64,000 nucleotides of DNA from Erysipelothrix piscisicarius (GTDB taxonomy: Bacteria > Bacillota_I > Bacilli_A > Erysipelotrichales > Erysipelotrichaceae): the NCBI RefSeq assembly GCF_003931795.1, contig NZ_CP034234.1, forward strand, positions 868,001 to 932,000, given 5' to 3'. Below, piece after piece: positions 16,423 to 54,700 of this stretch. Below the pieces are notes generated by a model that saw nothing but the letters and a program-made list of their open reading frames with translations, was not told the DNA's origin and did no database searches. How positions within the stretch are numbered: position 1 is the first letter of the stretch; the number at the start of each line of letters is the position of its first letter. The position numbers and the translations under genes are program-made.

Positions 16423-16451
16423 TTGACACCACCTTTGTTTTTGGGTATAGT
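16423..16451 (+). promoter_or_regulatory. Promoter of the first ABC-F leader
   Basis: TTGACA (16423-16428), 17 bases, TATAGT (16446-16451). The transcript should start near 16458 and carry the leader peptide and the ABC-F gene. Confidence 0.75.
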
Positions 16452-16474: not shown

Positions 16475-16521
16475 ATGGACAGAATTTCTTTCTAAATCAT
16501 TAATAATAAAATAGGAGGAAG
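16475..16521 (+). promoter_or_regulatory. Leader-peptide attenuator upstream of ABC-F gene 1
   Basis: A short ORF, MDRISF-stop (16475-16495), has a purine-rich GGCGGTGGGA site in front. Its last codons (16485-16494, TTTCTTTCTA) can pair over ten positions, with three G-U pairs, to 16512-16521 (TAGGAGGAAG), which is the Shine-Dalgarno region of the ABC-F gene. The loop is 17 bases. A ribosome stalled on the small ORF would keep this pairing open and release translation, the known logic of antibiotic-sensing leaders in front of ribosome-protection genes. That this leader acts so is inference. Confidence 0.55.
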
Positions 16522-16528
16522 TTTTGTC

Positions 16529-18025
16529 ATGTTTAATTTTAGTCTTAATATTAAGACGGAAGCAGGGCGCGAGCTTATCGCGCCTTTTTCTATGTCTTTA
16601 AATCAAAATGATCGCGTCGCATTAATTGGTGAGGAAGGGAATGGAAAAAGTCTAACCCTTAAGGCACTCGTCCAAGATAATTCTTTAGATGAGCTTCATG
16701 TTTCAAGGACGCTAAACAGTCGTCATGTGGTATTTGGCTATCTGAGTCAAGAAATGCCTCGAACGTTGCTTGAACAAGATGCGCTTTCGTATATCATTAA
16801 AGAACAATGGAATCGATATGGTGATGTGTCTCGGAAAATGAAGGAAGTCTTACCTCATTTTGAAATGGAGGATTTAAATCGTCCCATGCACTCATATAGT
16901 GGTGGGGAGCGCGTGCGCTTGCAGTTATTACAGTTGATGGTGCATCCATGTGACTGTTATCTTCTGGATGAGCCCAGCAATGACTTAGATTTAGAAACGT
17001 TAATGTGGCTCGAAGGGTGGATGCTTGCGCAAACCAAACCCATTATCTTTGTATCGCATGAAGTCATGTTCTTGCAAACGTGTGCGAATCGTATTGTTCA
17101 TCTTGAACAAACACATCGTAAAACACGCTCACATGTTACAGTCTATGAAGGTGATTATCAAGGATATTGTGATGCCTTTCTCAGTCAGATTCAAAAACAT
17201 AATCATGATGTTAAGTTGCGTCAAAAAGAAAAACAAAAACAAGAAGCGCGATGGCATCAGTTATACCAAAAAGTAGAGCATCGTCAACGGACACAAACCC
17301 GTCAAGATCCAGCAAAAGGACGTCTTTTGAAGAAAAAAATGCATACGATAAAATCGATGGAGCGACGTTTTGAGCGGGAAGTCGTGCCGGAAAAACGCGA
17401 TTTTGAAGGTGCGATCAAGCTATCGTTTGAGGAACAAGCGAGAATCCATCAAAAAAAGATCTTAGATTTTCATCTTGATGAATTGGTGCGAGAAGGACGT
17501 ATTCTGGCTTGTGATCTCGATATTGTGGTGTATAGCCGTGATCGCATTGCCATTGTTGGGTCCAATGGTGTAGGGAAGACAACGTTTCTGCATGAAATAA
17601 TAAAAGAAATTGATGCTGAAGATGTCGGTGTGATGCATCAGTCCTACGATCTTAACTTGGATTATGATTTGTCACCGATTGAAAACTGTGTTCTTGAAGG
17701 GTCCCGCGATGAACGTGGTCTGATCACAAATCATCTAGGGAGTTTGAAATTTACAGAGGATGAGATGAACACGCCGATGGAACGGCTATCGGGTGGTCAA
17801 AAAGCTAAGGTATCACTGCTGAAATTAGTTCTTAAGAATCCGAAAATAATCATTCTCGATGAGCCAACACGAAACTTGAGTCCACTCAGTGTTGGTGTGA
17901 TCTATCACTTACTTAATAACTATCAAGGGGGGATTATTTCTGTAACGCATGATCGTGCACTGATTCAAGAAGTGATGGATGATGTTTATTCATTTGATGC
18001 ATCTGGACTTAAGAAAATATCTTAA
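16529..18025 (+). CDS. ABC-F ATPase, probable ribosome-protection type, copy 1
   Basis: A 498-residue soluble protein with two ABC domains and no membrane segment, the ABC-F layout. Domain 1: Walker A GEEGNGKS (about residues 34-41), signature YSGGERVR, Walker B CYLLDEPSNDLDLE. A charged linker follows (about 210-290), which in ABC-F proteins reaches the P-site tRNA and sets drug specificity. Domain 2: Walker A GSNGVGKT, signature LSGGQKAK, Walker B IIILDEPTRNLSPLS. The divergent DEPTRNLSP is typical of the antibiotic-resistance side of the family (VmlR, Vga, Lsa relatives) rather than housekeeping EttA. A paralogue lies at 26284. The uORF leader suggests drug induction. The drug class cannot be read from the sequence. 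Confidence 0.85.
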   Translation: MFNFSLNIKTEAGRELIAPFSMSLNQNDRVALIGEEGNGKSLTLKALVQDNSLDELHVSRTLNSRHVVFGYLSQEMPRTLLEQDALSYIIKEQWNRYGDVSRKMKEVLPHFEMEDLNRPMHSYSGGERVRLQLLQLMVHPCDCYLLDEPSNDLDLETLMWLEGWMLAQTKPIIFVSHEVMFLQTCANRIVHLEQTHRKTRSHVTVYEGDYQGYCDAFLSQIQKHNHDVKLRQKEKQKQEARWHQLYQKVEHRQRTQTRQDPAKGRLLKKKMHTIKSMERRFEREVVPEKRDFEGAIKLSFEEQARIHQKKILDFHLDELVREGRILACDLDIVVYSRDRIAIVGSNGVGKTTFLHEIIKEIDAEDVGVMHQSYDLNLDYDLSPIENCVLEGSRDERGLITNHLGSLKFTEDEMNTPMERLSGGQKAKVSLLKLVLKNPKIIILDEPTRNLSPLSVGVIYHLLNNYQGGIISVTHDRALIQEVMDDVYSFDASGLKKIS

Positions 18026-22468: not shown

Positions 22469-23316
22469 TTAGGATGAAGTTAACCGATAATTTACGGGAG
22501 ATTGATATCCTAGCTTTTCTTGTATTCTATTTTCATTGTAATATTTTAAATAGTTTATCACAGTTTGTGATACAATTTCAGTAGAACCCTTTAGTTCTGG
22601 GTTTAATTCGAATGTTTCACACTTTAGCGAGGCATGAAACGATTCGATAGGAGCATTATCAGCGGGTACCCTTACGGGACATACTCATGGTAATGCTTTT
22701 ATTTTTTACTTTGAGTTGATACTCTTTTGATGTATAGACACTCCCTTGATCAGAATGAAGAATACATGGCTGAACGATATCCGGAAGTTGATTTAATGTA
22801 TCAACCACACATTCTAGGTTTTGTCTGTCACTCAATGTAGACGCAATAATCTCACCATTATATAAATCCATGATCGTAGATAAATAGAGCATCTTATGGC
22901 CATAAGGGATGTAAGTGATATCTGTCACCAATTTCTAGAGGACGTAGTGATTTAAAGTCGCGATTAATGATATTGGGCATAATGATCTTCGGATTTTTGT
23001 TTTTTCGATACCGTTTGACCTTAACACGGCATTGACATTGGTGTTTCTGCATTATCTTTTGAACAGTGTTCTTATTGATAATTCTTTCTTTTCGAATTAA
23101 TGCAGTTATTTTTCGATATCCATAACGAAATTTATTTTCTTTACAAAGTTCAATTACTAATCCTTCATTGACAGAATAATTATTAGACTCTAGTTGCTCT
23201 TTTTTAGTCCAACGGTAATACGTTGACTTAGGTACCCCAAAAAGATTCAAGATATCTTTAAGAGATACAGTGTTGCGATACTCTTCAACGAGCTTGATGA
23301 TTATTTCAGGAACCAC
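22469..23316 (-). pseudogene. IS3-family OrfB (DDE integrase) with two frameshifts
   Basis: The catalytic transposase frame. Segments in order: the HTH_21 region (KFRYGYRKITALI), then the rve integrase core with VTDITYIPYGHK (first Asp), LHSDQGSVYTS (second Asp) and NAPIESFHASLKCE (Glu), ending QEKLGYQSPVNYR. Frame breaks occur near 22920 (an A-run indel before VTDITY) and near 22670 (between SRKG and ADNAPIE). All three catalytic residues survive, but in three frames. Confidence 0.85.
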
Positions 23317-26154: not shown

Positions 26155-26228
26155 ACTTGTAAGGGATAAAAAGCCATGTTATATTATAAATAACTAGAAA
26201 GGTAGCAGATTGCTATCCGGTGAGACTT

Positions 26229-26281
26229 ATGGGAAATGCGCCTCGACTTAAAACATAATAACTAAAAAGGAGGCGTTTTTT
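26229..26281 (+). promoter_or_regulatory. Leader-peptide attenuator upstream of ABC-F gene 2
   Basis: A nine-codon ORF, MGNAPRLKT-stop (26229-26258), has a GGTGAG site before it. Its CGCCTC (26239-26244, codons 4-6) pairs with GAGGCG (26270-26275), which contains the end of the ABC-F Shine-Dalgarno AAGGAGG. A G-U and three A-U pairs can extend the helix, and six T residues follow. The same hairpin can therefore act as an intrinsic terminator or hide the ribosome site. An upstream hairpin (GGTAGCA...TGCTATCC, about 26202-26219) may be the alternative partner. Drug-stalled ribosomes on the small ORF would free the gene. Mechanism is inferred. Confidence 0.65.
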
Positions 26282-26283
26282 CA

Positions 26284-27756
26284 ATGTTTAACATAAGTCT
26301 TGATGTTAAGACAGATCAAGGACGTGATCTTATCACGTCTTTTTCTATGTCCGTAAATAAAGGGGATCGTGTGGGCGTGATCGGAGAAGAGGGAAATGGT
26401 AAAAGTGTATTTCTTAAATCACTTGTCAATCGTCCCGAAATTCAAAAACTCAGAATCCACCGTTCCTTGCATCCAGAATCCATCGTTTTTGGATATCTAG
26501 GTCAGGAGTTGGAACCGCAGGAGCGTGCTCTAACGCTCTTGGAATTTGTGTTAGGGAGTGCTTGGGATCGTTTTGGGGAGTTTGTCCCCTTGTTTTTAAC
26601 GATGGTACCAACATTGGATGAAAATGACTATAATCGCACCATGGACTCATTAAGTGGTGGTGAATGTGTTCGTATTCAATTACCAAAGCTTCAGATGCAA
26701 GATGTTGACTGTTATGTTTTGGATGAGCCCACCAATAATTTAGATATAGAAGGCTTAATCTGGTTTGAACACTGGATGGAAATGCAAACCAAACCCGTTA
26801 TCTTTGTATCACACGATCTTAATACGTTAAAACACAGTGCAAATCGCATTCTACACTTTGAACAATTACATCGTAAATCAATTTCAAAATTAACACTGTT
26901 TGAAGGATCCTATGATGCATATATTGAAAATCGTGAACGAGCCAGAGCGCACCATAATCAACAAGTTCGTTTTCAGAAACGATTTGAAGCGAAACAAGAG
27001 GCAACATGGCAAAAGCAGTATCAAAAAGTGGGTCATCAACTTCGAAATGTGAACCGGGCAGACCCTGGTCTTCAAAAGAAAATGAAAAATTTAAAAGCAC
27101 AAAAGAAGCGACGATCTAAACAAGTGACCTTGGAACACCAAGATCAAGAAGAAGCAATTAGAATGGAATTCGGCAAACAAAAACCAGTCTATTCGAATGT
27201 TGTTTTATCCATTGATATTCCATTTTTAGAGACCGATTGGGGTGTCCGAGGCCGAAACTATTACTACCGTTTACATGCAGGTGAAAAAGTTGCGCTTGTA
27301 GGTCTAAATGGTAGTGGTAAAACGACTCTTTTTCATCGTATGATTCAGGGTCTTGAAGGGAATGTAGGTGTGATGCATCAGGATCATCATCAAAATCTTG
27401 ATGTGAGAAAAAATGCAATTGAAAATTGTATGCGGCTTGGGGAAGCGGAAATGGAAGTTCGAATTGAACTTGGCAGACTTAACTTTACTTCTGATGAGAT
27501 GGAACTTCCGATTATCCATTTATCCGGTGGACAAAAGGCAAAATTATCGCTGTTAAAGATATTACGGACAAAACCGGATGTGTTGTTATTGGATGAACCG
27601 ACGCGTAATTTAAGTCCATTTTCATTAAAGGTGATCTATGAGATGTTAGCGGATTATCACGGTGCGATTTGGTGTATTACGCATGACCTCCAACTTATCC
27701 AACATGTATTTAAAGATGTTTTAGAAATGACACCCAATGGTTTTACGAAACGTTAA
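26284..27756 (+). CDS. ABC-F ATPase, probable ribosome-protection type, copy 2
   Basis: A 490-residue paralogue of the ABC-F protein at 16529, alike from the opening MFNISLDVKTDQGRDLI to the end. Domain 1: GEEGNGKS, LSGGECVR, CYVLDEPTNNLDIE. Linker with KRFEAKQEATWQKQYQKVGHQL (about 215-290). Domain 2: GLNGSGKT (about residues 340-347), LSGGQKAK, VLLLDEPTRNLSPFS. No membrane helices. The shared DEPTRNLSP motif groups both with antibiotic-resistance ABC-F proteins. The attenuator-like leader is more terminator-like than that of copy 1, so the two may answer different drugs. The drug class is not shown by the sequence. Confidence 0.87.
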   Translation: MFNISLDVKTDQGRDLITSFSMSVNKGDRVGVIGEEGNGKSVFLKSLVNRPEIQKLRIHRSLHPESIVFGYLGQELEPQERALTLLEFVLGSAWDRFGEFVPLFLTMVPTLDENDYNRTMDSLSGGECVRIQLPKLQMQDVDCYVLDEPTNNLDIEGLIWFEHWMEMQTKPVIFVSHDLNTLKHSANRILHFEQLHRKSISKLTLFEGSYDAYIENRERARAHHNQQVRFQKRFEAKQEATWQKQYQKVGHQLRNVNRADPGLQKKMKNLKAQKKRRSKQVTLEHQDQEEAIRMEFGKQKPVYSNVVLSIDIPFLETDWGVRGRNYYYRLHAGEKVALVGLNGSGKTTLFHRMIQGLEGNVGVMHQDHHQNLDVRKNAIENCMRLGEAEMEVRIELGRLNFTSDEMELPIIHLSGGQKAKLSLLKILRTKPDVLLLDEPTRNLSPFSLKVIYEMLADYHGAIWCITHDLQLIQHVFKDVLEMTPNGFTKR

Positions 27757-27763
27757 GAAATGC

Positions 27764-28055
27764 TTGACAGCAAGGATATTCGTGCTATTATTGCATTAAT
27801 AACAAACTTTATGATTGAGAGGAGTAGCTTTCAAGAAGTAAGTTCAGAGAGTCTGTGGTTGGTGTGAACAGATCTTACCTCGAAGGTGAATGGGCTCATG
27901 AAAGGCGGAATGAACACTTCGGTAAGTAGTTTACGACGGTTGCCCCCGTTAAATGGGCAGGAATATGATAGTATTCCTATTGAGCTACGTAGATTACGTA
28001 GAGTTTCAGGTGGTACCGCGAAGACTTCGCCCTGTATGGGTGAAGTTTTTTTTGT
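27764..28055 (+). promoter_or_regulatory. T-box riboswitch (Trp) upstream of trpP
   Basis: A TTGACA (27764-27769) starts a leader of about 260 bases with the T-box layout. The AGAGAG and GGTTGGTGTGAA stem I distal elements are at about 27847-27872. A specifier candidate TGG follows in GGTGAATGGGCTCATGAA (about 27885-27902). The T-box sequence AGGTGGTACCGCG is at 28008-28020. A terminator stem ACTTCGCCC/GGGTGAAGT with T run (28024-28053) is the off-state. Uncharged tRNA-Trp would stabilise the antiterminator and turn on the transporter gene. TGG and the downstream TrpP gene agree with each other. Confidence 0.9.
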
Positions 28056-28128: not shown

Positions 28129-28647
28129 ATGAAAATCAAAAATTTAACCCTTTCGACCTTGTTTTTAACACTGGGTCTTGTATTACATATCACGGTCCCG
28201 GGTACCGTAGGTTTTATGAAACCCGATTTTATGCTTGCGATGTTTTTCTTTGCGCTTTTTGGACTGCAATCGTTTCGAGAGGTTATCGTTGTAAGCATAG
28301 TTTGTGGCTTTTTGACTGCCATGACAACGGCAATGCCTGGTGGGGAAGTTGCTAATGTCATCGATAAACTCATTACCGGTCCACTTGTCTTCTATGGATA
28401 CCAATTCTTAGTTAGAAAATTGGATTTAAAGGTTTCGTCGTGTTTGATTACGTGTCTTGGAACTTGTATATCCGGCTTGATTTTTTTAAGCATCGTTCAA
28501 GTGCTGGGTGGGATTTCCCTCCCGCTACAATTTTTCCTATTGGGTATCATTCTTCCGGCGATGGTTGTAAATAGCATCCTTGTTTTGCTAATTTCAAAGG
28601 TGATGGAACGCATTCAACCGAAAAAAGAGCCTAATCTTCATTATTAA
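28129..28647 (+). CDS. trpP: Tryptophan transporter TrpP
   Basis: A 172-residue membrane protein of the TrpP (YhaG) family, which in Bacillus imports tryptophan. About five hydrophobic helices cover most of the length. The FMKPDFMLAMFFFALFG stretch (about residues 25-41) and TAMPGGEVANVIDKLITG (about 64-81) are typical of the family. ATG 28129 has AAAGGAG at the right distance. It is the sole gene behind the Trp-specific T-box, which fits uptake when charged tRNA-Trp is scarce. No trp biosynthesis genes are in view. Confidence 0.88.
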   Translation: MKIKNLTLSTLFLTLGLVLHITVPGTVGFMKPDFMLAMFFFALFGLQSFREVIVVSIVCGFLTAMTTAMPGGEVANVIDKLITGPLVFYGYQFLVRKLDLKVSSCLITCLGTCISGLIFLSIVQVLGGISLPLQFFLLGIILPAMVVNSILVLLISKVMERIQPKKEPNLHY

Positions 28648-33148: not shown

Positions 33149-34489
33149 ATGAAAATTCATAAAAAGACGTCAATGACAGAGGGCGTCATTTGGAAAGAAA
33201 TGCTCTTGTTTTCAATTCCGCTTTTGATTGGGAATCTATTCCAACAACTTTATAATACCGTGGACTCCTTTGTGGTTGGAAACTATGTGGGTGAAGAAGC
33301 GCTTGCGGCAGTTGGTGCAAGTACGCCTCTAAGTAACGTTATTATTGGTTTGTTTATGGGGATTTCGACTGGTGCGGGTATTCTTATTTCTCGATATTTT
33401 GGGGCGAAGAAAGATGAAGAATTGCATGATTCGATTCATACCTTTATGGCGTTTTCGTTGATTGTAAGTGTTTTTCTTACATTTTTCGGTTACGTAATGT
33501 CCCCAATATTTCTGGGGTGGCTCAAGACACCCGCAAATATTATGGAACCTGCAACACTTTACTTAAGAGTTTATTTTTGGGGTGTAACCGGTCTTGTTAT
33601 TTATAACTCAGGAGCAGCTATTTTACGTGCAATCGGGGATTCACGCAATCCCTTAATTTATCTATGCATCTCAAGTCTTATAAATGTTTCATTAGACTTA
33701 TTGTTTGTTATTGTTTTTGATATGGGAATTTTAGGTGTTGCGGTTGCAACACTGATTGCTCAGCTTACATCTGCAATTTTAGTCTGGATGCATTTACTAC
33801 GCGTTGATGATATTTATCAACTCAAGATGACAGATATTCGTATTCATCGAGATAAACTGTATGAAATTATTCGATTGGGAATTCCTACTGGAATTCAACA
33901 GACTGTAGTTTCATTTTCCAATGTCTTGGTACAATCGTATATCAATGCCTTTGGTTCTGCAGCCGTTGCCGGATTTAGTGCGGCGGATAAATTTAATGCG
34001 TTTTTATCCATGCCAACTCAAAGTTTTTCGTTAACAATAACGACTTTTACCGGTCAAAACCTTGGAGCTGGACGTAAAGAACGTATTATGGAGGGGGTTC
34101 GTACTGCTCTAGTTTTAGCGGTCGGGATCGTTATTATTATCGGGATTCCAACGTTTATCTATGCAGATCAACTCATTGGTTTCTTTTCACCTGAACCGAT
34201 GGTTATTGTATATGGTGCACGGATGTTACGGATTATGGTGCCATTCTATTTTGCACTCAGCACAACAAGTATTTTGAGTGGTGCATTACGTGGTGCAGGC
34301 CTCACAATGGTTCCGATGATTATCATGATTTCGTGTTTCACCATCCTAAGACAAATATTCTTATTTATCATGATGCGAATCAATCATTCCATTGATTGGG
34401 TATATTGGAGTTATTCTGTTACCTGGATCAGTTCAATGATTCTTACGCTTCTTTATTCAAAAGCTTCAAAATGGCTTGAAAAAGCATAG
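33149..34489 (+). CDS. MATE-family efflux transporter
   Basis: A 446-residue multidrug and toxin extrusion transporter with 12 hydrophobic helices. The opening LLFSIPLLIGNLFQQLYNTVDSFVVGNYVGEEALAAVGAS is the family hallmark, with the Asp of VDSF in helix 1-2. TFTGQNLGAGRKERI in the second half is the matching repeat. It likely exports cationic compounds using a sodium or proton gradient; the substrate is unknown. Its AAGGAAGG site is good and a terminator follows. Confidence 0.92.
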   Translation: MKIHKKTSMTEGVIWKEMLLFSIPLLIGNLFQQLYNTVDSFVVGNYVGEEALAAVGASTPLSNVIIGLFMGISTGAGILISRYFGAKKDEELHDSIHTFMAFSLIVSVFLTFFGYVMSPIFLGWLKTPANIMEPATLYLRVYFWGVTGLVIYNSGAAILRAIGDSRNPLIYLCISSLINVSLDLLFVIVFDMGILGVAVATLIAQLTSAILVWMHLLRVDDIYQLKMTDIRIHRDKLYEIIRLGIPTGIQQTVVSFSNVLVQSYINAFGSAAVAGFSAADKFNAFLSMPTQSFSLTITTFTGQNLGAGRKERIMEGVRTALVLAVGIVIIIGIPTFIYADQLIGFFSPEPMVIVYGARMLRIMVPFYFALSTTSILSGALRGAGLTMVPMIIMISCFTILRQIFLFIMMRINHSIDWVYWSYSVTWISSMILTLLYSKASKWLEKA

Positions 34490-40152: not shown

Positions 40153-40818
40153 ATGGTGATGTTTCCTAATGATTGGATGGGCTACTTAAATGGGGTTATT
40201 ATAATATGGTTTGCGGTGACCTTATACATTGGATACAAGAAAGGTTTGTTGTTGCAACTTGTTGATGTTGTTGGAACATTTGTATCTCTTTTTGCAGCAT
40301 GGATTTTTGCACCGGTTTTTGTGCAAGTTTTCCAATTCTTCAAAGCATCGGGAACGGGGTTTTTAACCATTAATCAACTCGTTGTACATCAAATGAATCA
40401 GTTGATTTGGTTTGTAATTCTATTCATTGTGATTCGTATCGTTTTAATGCTTGTAACACCACTTGCAACGGTAATCTCAAAAGTCCCTTTAGTAAAGCAA
40501 GTAAACTCAGCAATTGGAGGGGTCTTTAGTGTCGTGTTTTTTGCACTTAAACTTGTTTTGATCTGCGTTATATTGACGACACCAATCATCAAAAATGGCC
40601 AGGAAGTGATCGATAACACGTGGCTCGTTTATGTTGAGAATGCTTCAAAACCAGTTTTAGGAGCTTTTGATGATTTCATGAATCAAAATACTGCAATTCA
40701 AAGCATTATTACAGATCAACAATTATCGCCAAGTCAACAAGAAGCCATGGTCAAGTGGCTTGAAAAACATGGTTTTAATGAAATACAGATTAGGGAGTAT
40801 CTAGAAAAATATGAATAA
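40153..40818 (+). CDS. cvpA: CvpA-family membrane protein
   Basis: A 221-residue protein with four helices, the second starting at VTLYIGYKKGLLLQLVDVVG, the CvpA/YshB signature. In Bacillus the gene lies between rnhC and mutS2, as here. In enterobacteria CvpA affects colicin V production and purine genes; its role in Firmicutes is not settled. The start has AGGAGTGA upstream. It overlaps mutS2 by eight bases. Confidence 0.85.
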   Translation: MVMFPNDWMGYLNGVIIIWFAVTLYIGYKKGLLLQLVDVVGTFVSLFAAWIFAPVFVQVFQFFKASGTGFLTINQLVVHQMNQLIWFVILFIVIRIVLMLVTPLATVISKVPLVKQVNSAIGGVFSVVFFALKLVLICVILTTPIIKNGQEVIDNTWLVYVENASKPVLGAFDDFMNQNTAIQSIITDQQLSPSQQEAMVKWLEKHGFNEIQIREYLEKYE

Positions 40819-48371: not shown

Positions 48372-49007
48372 ATGAACAACTATTATGAAACGTGCATGAA
48401 CTCAATTCAAAGCCTTCTTGATGAAGGAAAAACACGTGAAGCACTTGTGCTTATCGATGAAGAATTGAGAATGCCTTATGTACCCGAACCATATTTTACG
48501 CAGTTTCAATCCATTCGTGATTCGATACGAATCGATACAAGCCCATCAAGTAAATACTATGAAGATATTGAGGACTTAGAGGAAGCATTACGTGGAAATG
48601 AACTTTTACAACAAAAGGCCATTATTTCTTTGGAACGTATGAACCTACGTAATGAACTCCCTCATATAAAAAAATGGCTTGCAGATGAGTACACCGAAGA
48701 TTGGATCAAAAAACAAATATTATTTTTCTTGATTGATCAGTCGATTGATTTGAAATTGAATTTAAAGTTAAAAATGACGGAGCAGGTGGTTGATACATCT
48801 CAATTGGAAAATCCATTTGAATCAGAAGCGTATCAAGCATGTGTATTACAGTTGGGTGATATGCTTGAGTCTGAAAACCCGAGTTTATTAATTCTTTGTC
48901 TTGGTGCTTTGGAACAACGCGTCCTCGATGCATTCCCAGTGTCAATTGATGAATTAAAAGCAGAGGAAATATTGTATACAGTGAACACTTATTTGTATAA
49001 AGTATAA
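48372..49007 (+). CDS. DUF3196-like helical protein upstream of tig
   Basis: A 211-residue acidic, mostly helical protein. Repeating helices such as YETCMNSIQSLLDEGKTREAL (residues 4-24) resemble a TPR-like fold, and similar proteins sit before tig in related Firmicutes. I match it to DUF3196 by position and style, not by a clear motif. ATG 48372 has AAAGGAAAAG before it; a longer start at 48348 is possible. Function unknown. Confidence 0.65.
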   Translation: MNNYYETCMNSIQSLLDEGKTREALVLIDEELRMPYVPEPYFTQFQSIRDSIRIDTSPSSKYYEDIEDLEEALRGNELLQQKAIISLERMNLRNELPHIKKWLADEYTEDWIKKQILFFLIDQSIDLKLNLKLKMTEQVVDTSQLENPFESEAYQACVLQLGDMLESENPSLLILCLGALEQRVLDAFPVSIDELKAEEILYTVNTYLYKV

Positions 49008-54449: not shown

Positions 54450-54700
54450 TTGACGGGTAAGTTTTTATGTGATAAAATAAGATAAATCGTTGAACAAGAA
54501 GAGTAACTTATGGATTGAGCTAAGAGAGTTGTTGGTTGGTGCGAAACAATCTGATGCATGAGTGAAGGTAGCTTGGGAGATTGATGTCTGAACGTTAAGT
54601 AAGATGTTACGTAGCCCGCGTTAACGGCAAGAAGGCATACGCATGTATGTAAATTAAGGTGGTACCACGATTCATCGTCCTTTGGATGGTGTTTTTTTTT
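54450..54700 (+). promoter_or_regulatory. T-box riboswitch (Val) upstream of GNAT-valS
   Basis: TTGACG (about 54450) begins a leader with T-box features. AGAGAG and GGTTGGTGCGAA form the stem I distal part (about 54524-54546). A specifier candidate GTA lies in GTGAAGGTAGCTTGGG, at the same offset from the distal loop as TGG in the trpP leader. The T-box sequence AAGGTGGTACCACG is at about 54657-54669, and a terminator stem CATCGTCC/GGATGGTG with T run at 54672-54700. Uncharged tRNA-Val would raise expression. A GNAT gene, not valS, is the first gene read. Confidence 0.88.

Follow-up and report, generated by a model that had tools for sequence, protein, structure and literature searches.

The leader of the ABC-F gene at position 26284 is most readily interpreted as a minimal ABC-F-type translational attenuator, in which a short upstream open reading frame (uORF) is itself the anti-Shine-Dalgarno (anti-SD) strand. 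A terminator-like hairpin lies inside the ABC-F ORF, and our favoured reading, held with a little more belief than doubt, is a ribosome-mediated attenuator with two tiers: the leader switch and the in-ORF terminator. Positions are those of the window, the whole 64-kb stretch of DNA that was analysed. A paralogous gene at 16529 has the same arrangement. The features of the two loci are as follows.

26157-26185, +, sigma-70-like promoter TTGTAA-17-TATATT (9/12 matches, weak alone; orthologs have promoters at the same place)
26196-26223, +, type A 5' stem-loop AGAAAGGTAGCAGATTGCTATCCGGTGA, ending in the uORF SD
26219-26224, +, uORF SD GGTGAG (a GGTG-type SD precedes the uORF in all orthologs)
26229-26258, +, uORF MGNAPRLKT-stop, ATG at 26229 to TAA at 26258 (start position and length class conserved, peptide not)
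26238-26244, +, anti-SD (left) arm GCGCCTC, +10 to +16 of the uORF
26267-26281, +, ABC-F SD AAGGAGG (26267-26273), right arm GAGGCGT (26270-26276) and T6 (26276-26281; not conserved)
26284-27756, +, ABC-F gene, 490 aa, ATG at 26284
26318-26344, +, terminator-like hairpin (codons 12-20) and T5 inside the ABC-F ORF (terminator scan, synonymous shuffles, covariation)
16423-16451, +, promoter of the paralog, TTGACA-17-TATAGT
16475-16495, +, uORF of the paralog, MDRISF-stop, overlapping its anti-SD arm
16512-16528, +, right arm of the paralog leader hairpin, TAGGAGGAAGTTTTGTC, with its SD
16529-18025, +, paralogous ABC-F gene, 43% identical to the gene at 26284
16564-16589, +, terminator-like hairpin with T5 inside the paralog ORF, at the same codons as in the gene at 26284

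The ABC-F proteins

The genome that holds the window is 1.72 Mb, and its nearest named relatives found were Erysipelothrix aquatica and E. anatis. Analysis of the 490-aa protein with NCBIfam gave a ribosomal-protection ABC-F model, NF000355, as the closest (248 bits, below the cut-off of 380); the Vga model was likewise below its cut-off (215 bits versus 725). An AlphaFold model (pLDDT 89) contains two ABC domains and a helical interdomain linker (helices 210-255 and 261-279), without a membrane domain. The best TM-scores were obtained with PoxtA, VmlR2, LsaA and VmlR (0.78-0.82; 0.76-0.82 with VgaA included), and the model also resembles YbiT and YheS (0.76-0.77) and EttA (approximately 0.7). 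The predicted fold leans towards the resistance ABC-Fs without amounting to proof, and YbiT and YheS are not cleanly separated from them. Based on sequence and model, we describe the protein as resembling an ARE-ABCF and do not class it as one. No plasmid-borne close relative of the gene was found: all were below 60% identity, and those listed were 26-28% identical.

Published wild-type strains of E. rhusiopathiae are not resistant to lincosamide or macrolide, and strains lacking lsaE have MICs of 0.125-1 for lincomycin and 1-4 for tiamulin (PMC10058941). Thus, if those strains carry the gene, it would confer at most modest resistance. This susceptibility, the NF000355 score under the curated cut-off and the lack of a clean structural split from YbiT and YheS all favour a different reading, namely that these ABC-F proteins are general translation factors that do not protect against drugs, and that the leader responds to any slowdown of initiation or serves autoregulation. 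We consider this decidedly unlikely, as the top TM-scores are those of resistance proteins, the ABC-F genes of relatives are strongly enriched in short uORFs (see below), and six of ten genomes have two copies that differ in the interdomain loop. The linker tip (residues 225-300) is of two types: type A has a short NRADPG-LQ loop, as in Lysinibacillus and Brevibacillus relatives, and type B a longer TRQDPAKGRLL. Given these differences in sequence, the two paralogs in the window may protect against different drugs.

Predicted pairing of the uORF with the ABC-F SD

The leader of the gene at 26284 is approximately 90 nt long and that of the paralog approximately 70 nt, if transcription starts 7 nt past the -10 box. 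Within the former, GCGCCTC of the uORF pairs with GAGGCGT and the paired strand overlaps AAGGAGG, the SD of the gene. The uORF, hairpin, ABC-F SD and T6 had been proposed in a sequence-only reading and lie where it had placed them. Moreover, none of 200 dinucleotide shuffles was as stable as the leader fold (z = -3.66). The duplex between the uORF and the SD strand was significant for this gene (p = 0.001) and across nine divergent Erysipelothrix genes (Fisher p = 1e-11, with related genes treated as independent). A scan of the 64 kb for uORF codons that pair with the next SD returned four matches, and an ATG uORF occurred only at the two ABC-F genes. One match, a TTG uORF pairing with the SD at 48372, may be due to chance. 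No known RNA family was found at the leader of the gene at 26284.

We compared 16 ABC-F genes of this clade from ten Erysipelothrix genomes and modelled the 14 distinct ones. The genes are homologous, so tests across them are not independent, and the folds are predictions. A uORF with a GGTG-type SD was present in all 16 genes, the paralog included. Among the 14 distinct genes, 51-56 nt separated the starts of the uORF and the gene, the SD partners were located at +10 to +19 of the uORF, and the uORF codons paired with the SD of the next gene in every case. By sequence and comparison, the uORF, its pairing with the SD and this geometry are features of the clade. Modelling a ribosome on the uORF start codon reduced the SD:uORF pairing from 0.62-1.00 to 0.02 or less (14/14). 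In several models (L041, L045 and L047) the released SD takes other partners, so release is incomplete and relative. Together, the ubiquity of the uORF, the constant geometry and the modelled SD release support the earlier proposal of a ribosome-mediated uORF attenuator before the gene.

The leaders are of two types. Type A, found at the gene at 26284, has an extra 5' stem-loop; type B, found at the paralog, begins very close to the uORF SD. The type A 5' element, CTAGAAAGGTAGCAnATYGCTA..CYGGTGA, is better conserved than the downstream protein, its loop included. It occurs once per genome in seven Erysipelothrix genomes and in none of the others among 316 genomes of the order, and no copy was found before other genes. 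One clade member, L042 (G150:C1:693487-694899), has an in-frame TAA, yet retains the leader and the intragenic hairpin; it is a recent pseudogene or a sequence error.

The uORF peptide is not conserved

The sequence-only reading had suggested that the uORF peptide might be a new, sequence-specific drug sensor. Type A uORFs encode MGNAPRLKT, MGNAPTLKHNK, MGNAPTLKHNN and MGENSVDKK, as well as MGKLPH and MGQFLII from a TTG start. Type B uORFs encode MDRISF, MDRNSF, MDRKSF, MNRTSF, MYNSSYTA, MRTTPTH, MKIALS and MNSSSIN. A 2-nt deletion, which shifts the reading frame beyond codon 5, distinguishes the closest type A orthologs. Within the most similar type B group, all coding differences are nonsynonymous, and it is the codons paired to the SD strand that stay constant. 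Across the uORFs, the constant codons are mostly those that pair; the Gly codon that follows the type A start is also constant, and pairing offers no explanation for it. These sequences suggest that selection maintains the pairing, the start, the stop and the spacing of the uORF more than its residues.

The invariant Gly at the second position of type A peptides, the M-G-N-A-P shared by three orthologs and the reported importance of uORF(MIN) identity for vmlR induction (PMC10201436) would suit a drug-specific arrest peptide. The frameshift between closest orthologs, the unrelated type B peptides, the purely nonsynonymous differences within the closest type B group and the pairing of the constant codons with the SD strand all run against it, as does the length of the uORFs, which at 6-12 codons are short for tunnel-sensing arrest. 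A sequence-specific sensor is therefore highly improbable, and we set that suggestion aside. A stall on the uORF start codon or close to it, of the kind proposed for vmlR and cplR, is in better agreement with these data.

The leader hairpin probably acts mainly on translation

The leader hairpin had also been put forward as a combined terminator and ribosome-site attenuator. The second half of this description was supported, inasmuch as the hairpin is predicted to hide the SD. Its first half found little support: the hairpin has a loop of approximately 25 nt, the standard terminator scan makes no call there, and the T run varies across the genus, with six T residues in the gene at 26284, five in three other genes and three or four in the rest. 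Because the six-T tail is not conserved, the hairpin probably acts mainly on translation. With its long, uncalled loop and unconserved T run, it was rejected as a standard terminator of conserved function.

The hairpin of the gene at 26284 in particular might nevertheless double as a working intrinsic terminator that attenuates transcription before the ORF, as in cplR, whose terminator likewise sequesters the SD (PMC10201436). Its T6 directly abuts the stem, and three orthologs have T5. Against such a role stand the long loop, the T3-T4 of the other genes and the fact that no more than approximately 20 nt of transcription separate a loadable uORF from the T run. Overall, we judge it fairly unlikely.

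A terminator-like hairpin lies inside the ABC-F ORF

The standard terminator scan calls a hairpin within each ABC-F gene of the window (26318-26342, and 16564-16586 in the paralog). The hairpin occupies codons 12-20 in 16/16 genes, and TTTTT abuts the stem (TTTT in L042). The stem is bulged in L041, where a count of fixed pairs overlooks it. Compared with synonymous-codon shuffles, the hairpin window had a mean z of -3.4, and each of the 14 distinct genes scored below -1.5; elsewhere in the 600 nt scanned, the best separate window reached a mean z of -1.4. Two pairs of the stem are altered on both sides and 96% of pair cells are kept. No shuffle reached the covariation score, a control that is inflated by relatedness. 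Further, a Thr-Ser to Ala-Pro change in the protein is accompanied by synonymous changes in the paired Gly-Arg codons. All genes have the T tract beside the stem, and only on the sense side; with the codon use of these genes, such a tract on its own would not be unusual (p = 0.13-0.26 per gene). From the sequence comparison, the hairpin is under selection as RNA, and in sequence and predicted fold it has the anatomy of an intrinsic terminator.

Outside the clade, codons 12-20 of 100 outgroup ABC-F genes gave no hairpin signal (mean z between about -0.3 and -0.4), and many of these genes carry a terminator in the leader. Similarly, a more distant Erysipelothrix ABC-F gene, L044, has a uORF and a leader terminator, both identified by eye, and has no intragenic hairpin. 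Within the window, seven intragenic matches of comparable strength occur in 52 ORFs, and the two ABC-F genes rank first and third. A terminator-like hairpin with a T tract lies 10 nt into the ORF at 34475, whose start is perhaps wrongly placed, and a similar match lies 58 nt into the ORF at 40810; either may be due to chance.

The intragenic hairpin is predicted to form in both states of the leader, so the only evident link between the two would be translation of the ORF. In the ON state, pairing of the SD with the terminator region was 0.20 or less in 11 of the 14 genes and 0.59-0.70 in L045, L047 and L041. A conserved antiterminator linking the leader to the intragenic hairpin was considered and rejected, as the terminator hairpin stays formed in the ON state. 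A search of the literature, in which few subscription journals were covered, returned no matching intragenic terminator in ABC-F genes.

Proposed mechanism

In the first tier of the favoured mechanism, the short uORF would be translated and vacated when drug is absent, its codons would pair with the ABC-F SD, and the gene would go untranslated. In the presence of drug, arrest at or just after initiation would park a ribosome on the uORF. The leading edge of this ribosome, at about +16, would cover the anti-SD arm (+10 to +19) and so free the SD. The signal would be the stalled ribosome and not the sequence of the peptide; as first candidate inducers we infer inhibitors of the PTC such as pleuromutilins or streptogramin A. 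In the second tier, the hairpin at codons 12-20 and its T tract would act as an intrinsic terminator on untranslated mRNA, and full-length mRNA would be made only when a working ribosome enters the ORF after the first tier opens.

Two points speak against the second tier. The T5 (T4 in L042) is a short U tract, and a drug that blocks initiation at the uORF would also hit the main ORF, whose translation the second tier requires. The second tier would further require ribosome-polymerase coupling, which is unproven in the Erysipelothrix lineage: when coupling is tight, ribosomes of E. coli can block terminator hairpins (PMC5021804), whereas in Bacillus subtilis coupling is absent and transcription is of the runaway kind (PMC13323073). 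That the in-ORF terminator is a true second gate, at which transcription goes on only if another ribosome translates the start of the gene after the uORF signal, is put forward tentatively and with more doubt than belief. If correct, the switch would read drug damage together with leftover translation capacity.

Formation of the hairpin in both leader states with no antiterminator between them, the shortness of T5, and a selection that points to an RNA function without specifying its kind are also compatible with an attenuator confined to the leader. The first tier would then work as described, and the intragenic hairpin would slow early elongation, stabilise the mRNA or pause RNA polymerase. 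We regard this as somewhat unlikely, because every gene has a T tract abutting the stem, solely on the sense side, and because relatives retain a leader terminator that is absent from these genes. Under the two-tier reading, the hairpin makes translation-dependent termination in a Bacillota lineage testable by synonymous mutations, for which the paralogs provide two natural versions.

Relation to known attenuators

Of 94 outgroup ABC-F relatives, 42 have a short ATG uORF with a strong SD upstream, compared with 3.4 expected. The layout is therefore general for these ABC-F genes, and the RNA designs are lineage-specific. The attenuation logic of cplR and vmlR has been established experimentally, and arrest soon after initiation is the proposed signal in both (PMC10201436, PMC9226507). 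Like the Erysipelothrix leaders, cplR of Clostridioides difficile has a short uORF(MRI) and a hairpin that sequesters the ABC-F SD; it combines transcription and translation attenuation, and stalling is expected to show little context specificity (PMC10201436). In cplR, however, the leader contains a terminator hairpin and a separate 5' hairpin that holds the uORF (PMC10201436), whereas the Erysipelothrix uORF serves as the anti-SD arm and the terminator-like element is found within the ORF. Likewise, vmlR of B. subtilis shares a uORF(MIN), a proposed post-initiation stall and attenuation in an ABC-F leader, but uses four separate stems (anti-antiterminator, pause hairpin, terminator and SD hairpin) in a 219-nt leader (PMC9226507). 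The two leaders of the window, at approximately 90 and 70 nt, have one switching hairpin and no antiterminator.

In Listeria monocytogenes, lmo0919 (rli53) also has a uORF before an ABC-F gene, with drug-dependent read-through of a leader terminator/antiterminator; the passages that concern it mention no intragenic element (PMC11550727). An intrinsic terminator within an ORF, antibiotic-responsive through ribosomes, is known from bmrB-bmrCD of B. subtilis, where it is part of the leader ORF and termination is prevented, through an antiterminator, when translation slows (PMC4191407). In contrast, the Erysipelothrix element lies within the main ORF, where termination would have to be averted by translation as such. 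Finally, in toiL-topAI of Escherichia coli the uORF sequence pairs with the downstream translation start, which is freed when tetracycline or retapamulin stalls ribosomes at the uORF start codon (PMC12121999). Unlike the Erysipelothrix loci, this is a toxin-antitoxin operon with Rho-dependent termination and no ABC-F gene (PMC12121999).

With the uORF doubling as the anti-SD, the Erysipelothrix leaders extend the known ABC-F attenuators by a compact architecture, and they suggest that selection has kept geometry and not leader-peptide sequence. The intragenic hairpin was not found in the compared relatives outside the clade, and searches confined to leaders would miss elements of this sort.

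Two further groups of ABC-F leaders were observed. In a group mostly from uncultured Bacilli (L058, L067, L075, L087, L091, L092, L097, L099, L100, L101, L103, L107, L116, L119, L123 and L125), uORFs of the form MR[T/N/I][L/I]xK lie approximately 61-68 nt before the ABC-F start and are reminiscent of the MR[I/M] consensus of cplR (PMC10201436). In four ABC-F leaders of Erysipelotrichaceae (L015, L019, L022 and L028), the uORFs begin MYK or MYR, and the leaders have an apparent four-segment 1:2/3:4 layout of the ermC kind.

Other RNA features of the window

A T-box leader (27802-28037) lies directly behind the ABC-F gene at 26284 and before a membrane protein gene at 28129, and a second T-box leader occurs at 54481-54685. 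Positions 22566-22665 match the Listeria antisense RNA family rli23, beside transposase-like ORFs on the other strand.
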